Shown here: positions 30,165 through 30,212 of the stretch, in pieces | Layout: every line of letters starts with the position of its first letter | How positions within the stretch are numbered: the first letter of the stretch is position 1 | IMG/VR virus record: IMGVR_UViG_3300048916_000149 | Coordinates: 1 to 40,689 of that record | Reading direction: 5' to 3' (one strand) | DNA: 40,689 nt | Origin: a virus | Translations under genes and position numbers: made by a program | Notes under the pieces: generated by a model | What the model was told of the DNA's origin: nothing | What the model saw: the letters and a program-made list of their open reading frames with translations, nothing else | Databases searched by the model: none

Positions 30165-30212
30165 ATACCTCCTATTGCACGATGAGTTCTGTTAAACCTC
30201 AATAGGGGGTAT
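30165..30212. other. Candidate attP site for the serine integrase
   Basis: ATACCTCCTATTG (30165-30177) and CAATAGGGGGTAT (30200-30212) are inverted repeats matching at 12 of 13 positions, 22-bp spacer, 48 bp overall, ending 10 bp before the integrase start. Large serine integrases use attP sites of about 48-50 bp with imperfect dyads, and several (phiC31 type) lie directly upstream of int. The dyad centre falls at 30188/30189 within GAGTTCTG, so the crossover dinucleotide is probably in TTC. It could instead be an operator for the int promoter. Confidence 0.6.

Follow-up and report, generated by a model that had tools for sequence, protein, structure and literature searches.

Prophage relatives in Nocardia point to a 48-bp dyad upstream of a large serine integrase gene as a phage attP site

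Identification of the attachment site

The viral record IMGVR_UViG_3300048916_000149, whose 40,689 nucleotides make up the window analyzed here, carries a gene for a large serine integrase (int) that is directly preceded by a near-perfect dyad at positions 30165-30212. Comparison with lysogens of related phages indicates that this dyad is very probably the phage attachment site (attP) of the adjacent integrase. In four such lysogens in Nocardia, the switch between host and phage DNA falls within the counterpart of this site, at the corresponding point, which supports the initial annotation, where attP had been proposed from the size, symmetry and position of the dyad. The site is a well-supported but ordinary feature of a kind already known.

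Read directly from the window, the arms ATACCTCCTATTG (30165-30177) and CAATAGGGGGTAT (30200-30212) form an inverted repeat with 12 of 13 pairs matched and 22 bp of spacer between them, as originally described, and nine bases lie between the end of the right arm and the integrase GTG at 30222. An imperfect dyad of 48 bp with a central crossover dinucleotide is within the range of ~40-70 bp given for attP sites of large serine integrases (PMC4068962). When the 223-bp intergenic region was shuffled with dinucleotides preserved, a 12/13 dyad with a spacer of 10-34 bp arose in 0.23% of cases. A symmetry score over 25 pairs amounts to 15 at 30188/30189 (local mean 6.1, standard deviation 2.3), making this the top symmetry centre from 30101 to the int start; at this fixed centre, a score of at least 15 occurred in 0.025% of shuffles (P = 0.00025). 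Although the dyad is thus above chance at its position, its symmetry is not unique. Because 36 centres in the whole window score equally well (at least 15), symmetry alone would not settle the identity of the site, and this is decided by the lysogens of relatives. The functional attP probably extends 1-3 bp beyond the dyad on each side, given that the corresponding sites of two of these lysogens (G107 and G003) measure 50 bp.

Lysogens of related phages and the crossover point

The closest relative of the window integrase in the genome collection, 58% identical, is encoded by Nocardia sp. CDC159 (genome G002, prophage contig NZ_JAMRXH010000013.1). There TCAATAGCCGGTAT, the counterpart of the right arm, is found upstream of int at an unchanged distance, and a few bases above it the DNA turns into the C-terminal part of a host gene for an Erm-family 23S rRNA methyltransferase (236.6 bits to a broad Erm model with a cut-off of 212, the halves being joined for identification only). 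The remainder of the methyltransferase gene begins another contig, joined there with the site's left arm (the P-B' junction), and a complete attP, with a 127-bp overlap, is located 61 kb away at the end of a contig, a pattern that would fit a prophage present as an excised circle as well. CDC159 attP and attB have only GTGGT in common, a core that includes the aligned dyad centre GT, and the target stretch is uninterrupted and collinear in many other Nocardia genomes. The prophage of ~61 kb splits the methyltransferase gene at its NVPFAATTDIV region (L002 ~9480-9945, L010 ~2070-2130, L018 1-454).

Three further lysogens (G107, G003 and G021), with integrases about 54% identical to that of the window, switch between host and phage at CT, the dinucleotide in the matching position. 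The host/P' junction, an internal attP and the P-B' junction of G107 follow one another at identical intervals of 57,492 bp, and the junctions share only CT, on which a 50-bp dyad is exactly centred. In both G003 and G021 the target gene stops on one contig exactly after CT and continues on another, while the phage contig starts directly after CT; the G003 phage contig also ends in CT, which is again the exact midpoint of a dyad of 50 bp. The target gene in all three is metallo-beta-lactamase-like (MBL-type) by a weak Pfam match. In most other Nocardia genomes, the genes interrupted in the relatives continue collinearly through the junction point. For the relatives, both junctions, attP and empty attB sites are in evidence, with the switch point at the dyad centre and with a short attP/attB core (GTGGT in CDC159, CT in G107) between differing flanks.

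Alignment on TCAATAG places the window centre at TC, 30188-30189, in agreement with the earlier expectation of a crossover near TTC at 30187-30189. From the second centre base to the start codon there are 33 nt in CDC159, as in the window, and 34 nt where the arm is one base longer, in G107 and G003. The window integrase would accordingly be expected to use 30165-30212 with crossover at exactly TC. The search for attL and attR proposed at the outset has found junctions that split the equivalent site, in lysogens of relatives and not of the window phage itself. In the proposed course of events, an integrase dimer would bind both half-sites of the dyad, the bound attP would pair with attB in the host chromosome, and TC would be cut and rejoined; the far prophage end would then receive the left half (P), and the right half (P') would stay beside int.

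Several points weigh against this assignment. Among the 401 Nocardia-family genomes searched, neither a lysogen of the window phage nor its attB was identified. The relatives, whose integrases are 53-59% identical, differ in core dinucleotide and target gene. CDC159 attP is less symmetric, with 13 of 25 pairs at the aligned centre, which is not its best one, and part of the junction evidence (G003 and G021) depends on where contigs break.

Some observations accompany the site. The octamer GCACGATG (window 30177-30184) stands in the same register in the left half-site of the window and in that of CDC159 attB (L002), which may reflect integrase recognition or chance. Two related integrase genes (L032 in G002:C49 and L041 in G136:C267) have similar upstream host DNA, by eye an alpha/beta-hydrolase-like gene, probably a third target site. 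When viral contig DNA was scanned for the P' arm pattern, the hits were the sister genome, one related phage contig at its start (G501, L121) and contigs of which the few inspected looked like chance matches. The joined G501 contig ends form no dyad because the end of that record is not at the att site.

Alternative explanations

The dyad could act solely as an operator or promoter element of int, serving a repressor or autoregulation, with attP elsewhere, for example downstream of int. Its right arm does overlap a conserved -10 hexamer, and a gene for a phage helix-turn-helix (HTH) regulator is situated just upstream, but the host/phage switch in CDC159 and G107 falls within the equivalent upstream site, and the P half lies at the opposite end of the element, where recombination at this site would have to leave it. 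This explanation is accordingly quite improbable. The interval 31644-31975, named in advance as a possible place for attP, was rejected because the junctions of relatives lie upstream of int and none downstream. That the dyad is a chance inverted repeat would agree with the 36 equally or more symmetric centres in the 40.7-kb window, yet it is found at the very position predicted from lysogen-mapped sites, with the low fixed-centre probability given above, and relatives have kept its right arm, which leaves coincidence scarcely credible.

A crossover within attP but off the dyad centre, at another spacer dinucleotide (30187-30192), is a rather unlikely variant, though one that CDC159 invites: its shared P/B core of 5 bp aligns to 30188-30192, and because of this span CDC159 alone does not fix the dinucleotide. 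The G107 junctions, in contrast, share nothing beyond CT, the G003 and G021 contigs break exactly after it, and in G107 and G003 it coincides with the dyad centre.

Promoter overlap and a probable leaderless int

With attP at the dyad, its right arm would also carry the -10 element of a leaderless int promoter. The overlap with the hexamer TATTCT, pointed out in the initial annotation, is real and conserved in its spacing across int genes: TANNNT stands 6-7 nt before the start in all eight Nocardia-type int genes, that of the window included, and in 15 of 22 other phage int genes as annotated, compared with 4 of 50 neighboring phage genes and none of 22 open reading frame (ORF) starts in the window. 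Five phages that would fit this spacing only with their start codon chosen anew (phiScoe10, Legacy, Tweety19, Crewmate and Eraser) were left out of these counts. A Shine-Dalgarno-like tetramer is absent before the int GTG, and the int mRNA is likely leaderless. A generic consensus scan recovered neither a full sigma-70 promoter nor a terminator, so the promoter argument rests on the conserved spacing. A -10 hexamer that precedes the starts of serine integrase genes and overlaps attP was likewise seen in many actinophages (loci L186-L217 and window 30210-30222).

Since the right arm would carry the -10 element and the crossover would fall at the expected -35 position, integration would replace upstream promoter DNA: everything from the -35 position upstream would be exchanged for host DNA, while the -10 element would be kept. 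A comparable consequence has been reported for phage Samy, in which integration separates the integrase from its native promoter (PMC12924846). It is tempting to hypothesize that in this integrase clade, and in several other large serine integrases of actinophages, attP also serves as the core promoter of int, with a leaderless mRNA, that integration rewires int transcription to host sequence and that attP-bound integrase could repress int, a proposal that is tentative and somewhat short of an even chance. The conserved spacing supports the attP/promoter architecture as read from sequence, and the regulatory consequence is a prediction. The overlap thereby offers a testable idea on how integration affects int expression.

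Comparison with known systems

The nearest systems are those of Nocardia CDC159, G003, G021 and G107, in which attP is likewise directly upstream of int. They share with the window the P' arm, either as TCAATAGssGGTAT or in the 15-base form TCAATAGnnGGGTAT, and a crossover at the dyad centre, 33-34 nt away from the start codon, whereas their centre is GT or CT instead of TC and their left arm is different. Their targets are the erm-family gene in CDC159 and the MBL-type gene in the other three. The attP/int pair of the window thus has a core unlike those of its relatives, within an integrase clade whose identity to the cultured-phage integrases of the searched collection does not exceed 37%.

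Similar architecture recurs at a greater distance. In Streptomyces phage R4, attP ends directly before int, TACACT stands 6 nt before the GTG and the dyad centre is at 33 nt, although the integrase is only ~28% identical over part of its length and the site sequence is unrelated; R4 attP is active in recombination assays (PMC4015280). The attP of Streptomyces phage SV1 was first predicted from sequence, as an inverted repeat whose spacer measures 22 bp, and later verified (PMC4068962); the spacer length is that of the window, but SV1 attP is downstream of int and its arms are 10 bp. Among the closest cultured-phage integrases (35-37%), those of the mycobacteriophages Paola, Omnicron and Rando14 (Kratiovirus) are preceded by a dyad whose centre is 38 nt from the int start, which looks leaderless, while in the Gordonia phages JuJu and Fairfaxidum the symmetry score gave no clear dyad; the sites of both groups lack sequence similarity to that of the window. 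The phiC31 attP resembles the window site in size, symmetry and the large serine integrase mechanism; phiC31 integrase is larger, about 605 amino acids, and belongs to another branch. The phiC31 spacer shares TGAGTTCT with the window (phiC31 site from PMC4015280), an octamer that is no evidence of relatedness.

Attachment sites of large serine integrases are hard to predict, their cores being short (PMC10654092), and a prediction calibrated on lysogens is therefore useful for Nocardia genetics.

Source genome and state of attP

The window matches another viral record, IMGVR_UViG_3300048911_000168 (G001; 53,712 bp), over its full length with one mismatch (at least 99.997% identity). A 127-bp terminal repeat marks that record as a circular assembly, and its ends are straddled by the int region. 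The window represents part of a circular phage genome of 53.6 kb, and attP is therefore intact. It had been suggested that an intact attP implies an unintegrated genome. This does not follow from an intact attP alone, because G107, as assembled, holds an intact attP between tandem prophages; for the window genome, the circular assembly does support a free or circular form. The G107 arrangement (L037, L038 and L039, at G107:C98 80,383 / 137,875 / 195,367) is apparently a tandem double prophage with attP between two copies of equal length, which could be the product of dimer integration or an assembly effect.

Integrase gene and its neighbors

The int ORF contains Resolvase (PF00239) and Recombinase (PF07508) domains that exceed Pfam cut-offs, together with a zinc ribbon (PF13408) scoring 22.5, just under its cut-off of 25.3, the composition of a large serine integrase. 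Its serine, arginines and three cysteines line up with those of relatives, and, of 9 aligned sequences, 8 conserve the serine of the YTRKS motif; the exception has 33% identity and is misaligned at the motif. Relatives at about 49-59% identity occur in 6 of 150 Nocardia genomes (G002, G003, G006, G021, G107 and G136), and extending the search to the 401 Nocardia-family genomes at E 1e-100 added no genome and no closer lysogen. The nearest cultured-phage integrases, from Gordonia and Mycobacterium phages, are those described above, and megablast of the int region against cultured phages gave no match; the source phage is without a close cultured relative. Features of the region are collected in Table 1.

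Table 1. Predicted and annotated features around the int start in the window
Feature	Position	Strand	Remarks
HTH (XRE-type) regulator gene	28784-29998	+	Pfam HTH_3/HTH_31; phage-side neighbor of attP
Terminator-like hairpin	30029-30059	+	12-bp perfect, GC-rich; after HTH gene; weak T tract; read from sequence, not flagged by terminator scan
Predicted attP dyad	30165-30212	.	Arms 30165-30177 and 30200-30212; 22-bp spacer
P arm (left half-site)	30165-30177	+	Expected at far prophage end, from P-B' junctions in G002 (L018) and G107 (L039)
Predicted crossover dinucleotide TC	30188-30189	.	Dyad centre; aligned with attP of G107 and G003 (CT) and G002 (GT)
P' arm (right half-site)	30200-30212	+	Stays beside int after integration in relatives: TCAATAGssGGTAT
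-10-like hexamer TATTCT	30210-30215	+	6 nt before GTG; expected -35 position (30187-30192) covers crossover
Large serine integrase gene	30222-31643	+	473 amino acids, GTG start; Pfam domains; 58-59% identity to Nocardia prophage integrases

Two genes farther away deserve mention. The protein encoded at 26561-27337 has a borderline match to a PE-PPE (alpha/beta-hydrolase) domain and is possibly a lysis enzyme acting on mycolic acids, which would suit a Nocardia-type host. A short way downstream of the integrase region, at 33192-33902, a protein with a BRO-N domain is encoded, a possible antirepressor.
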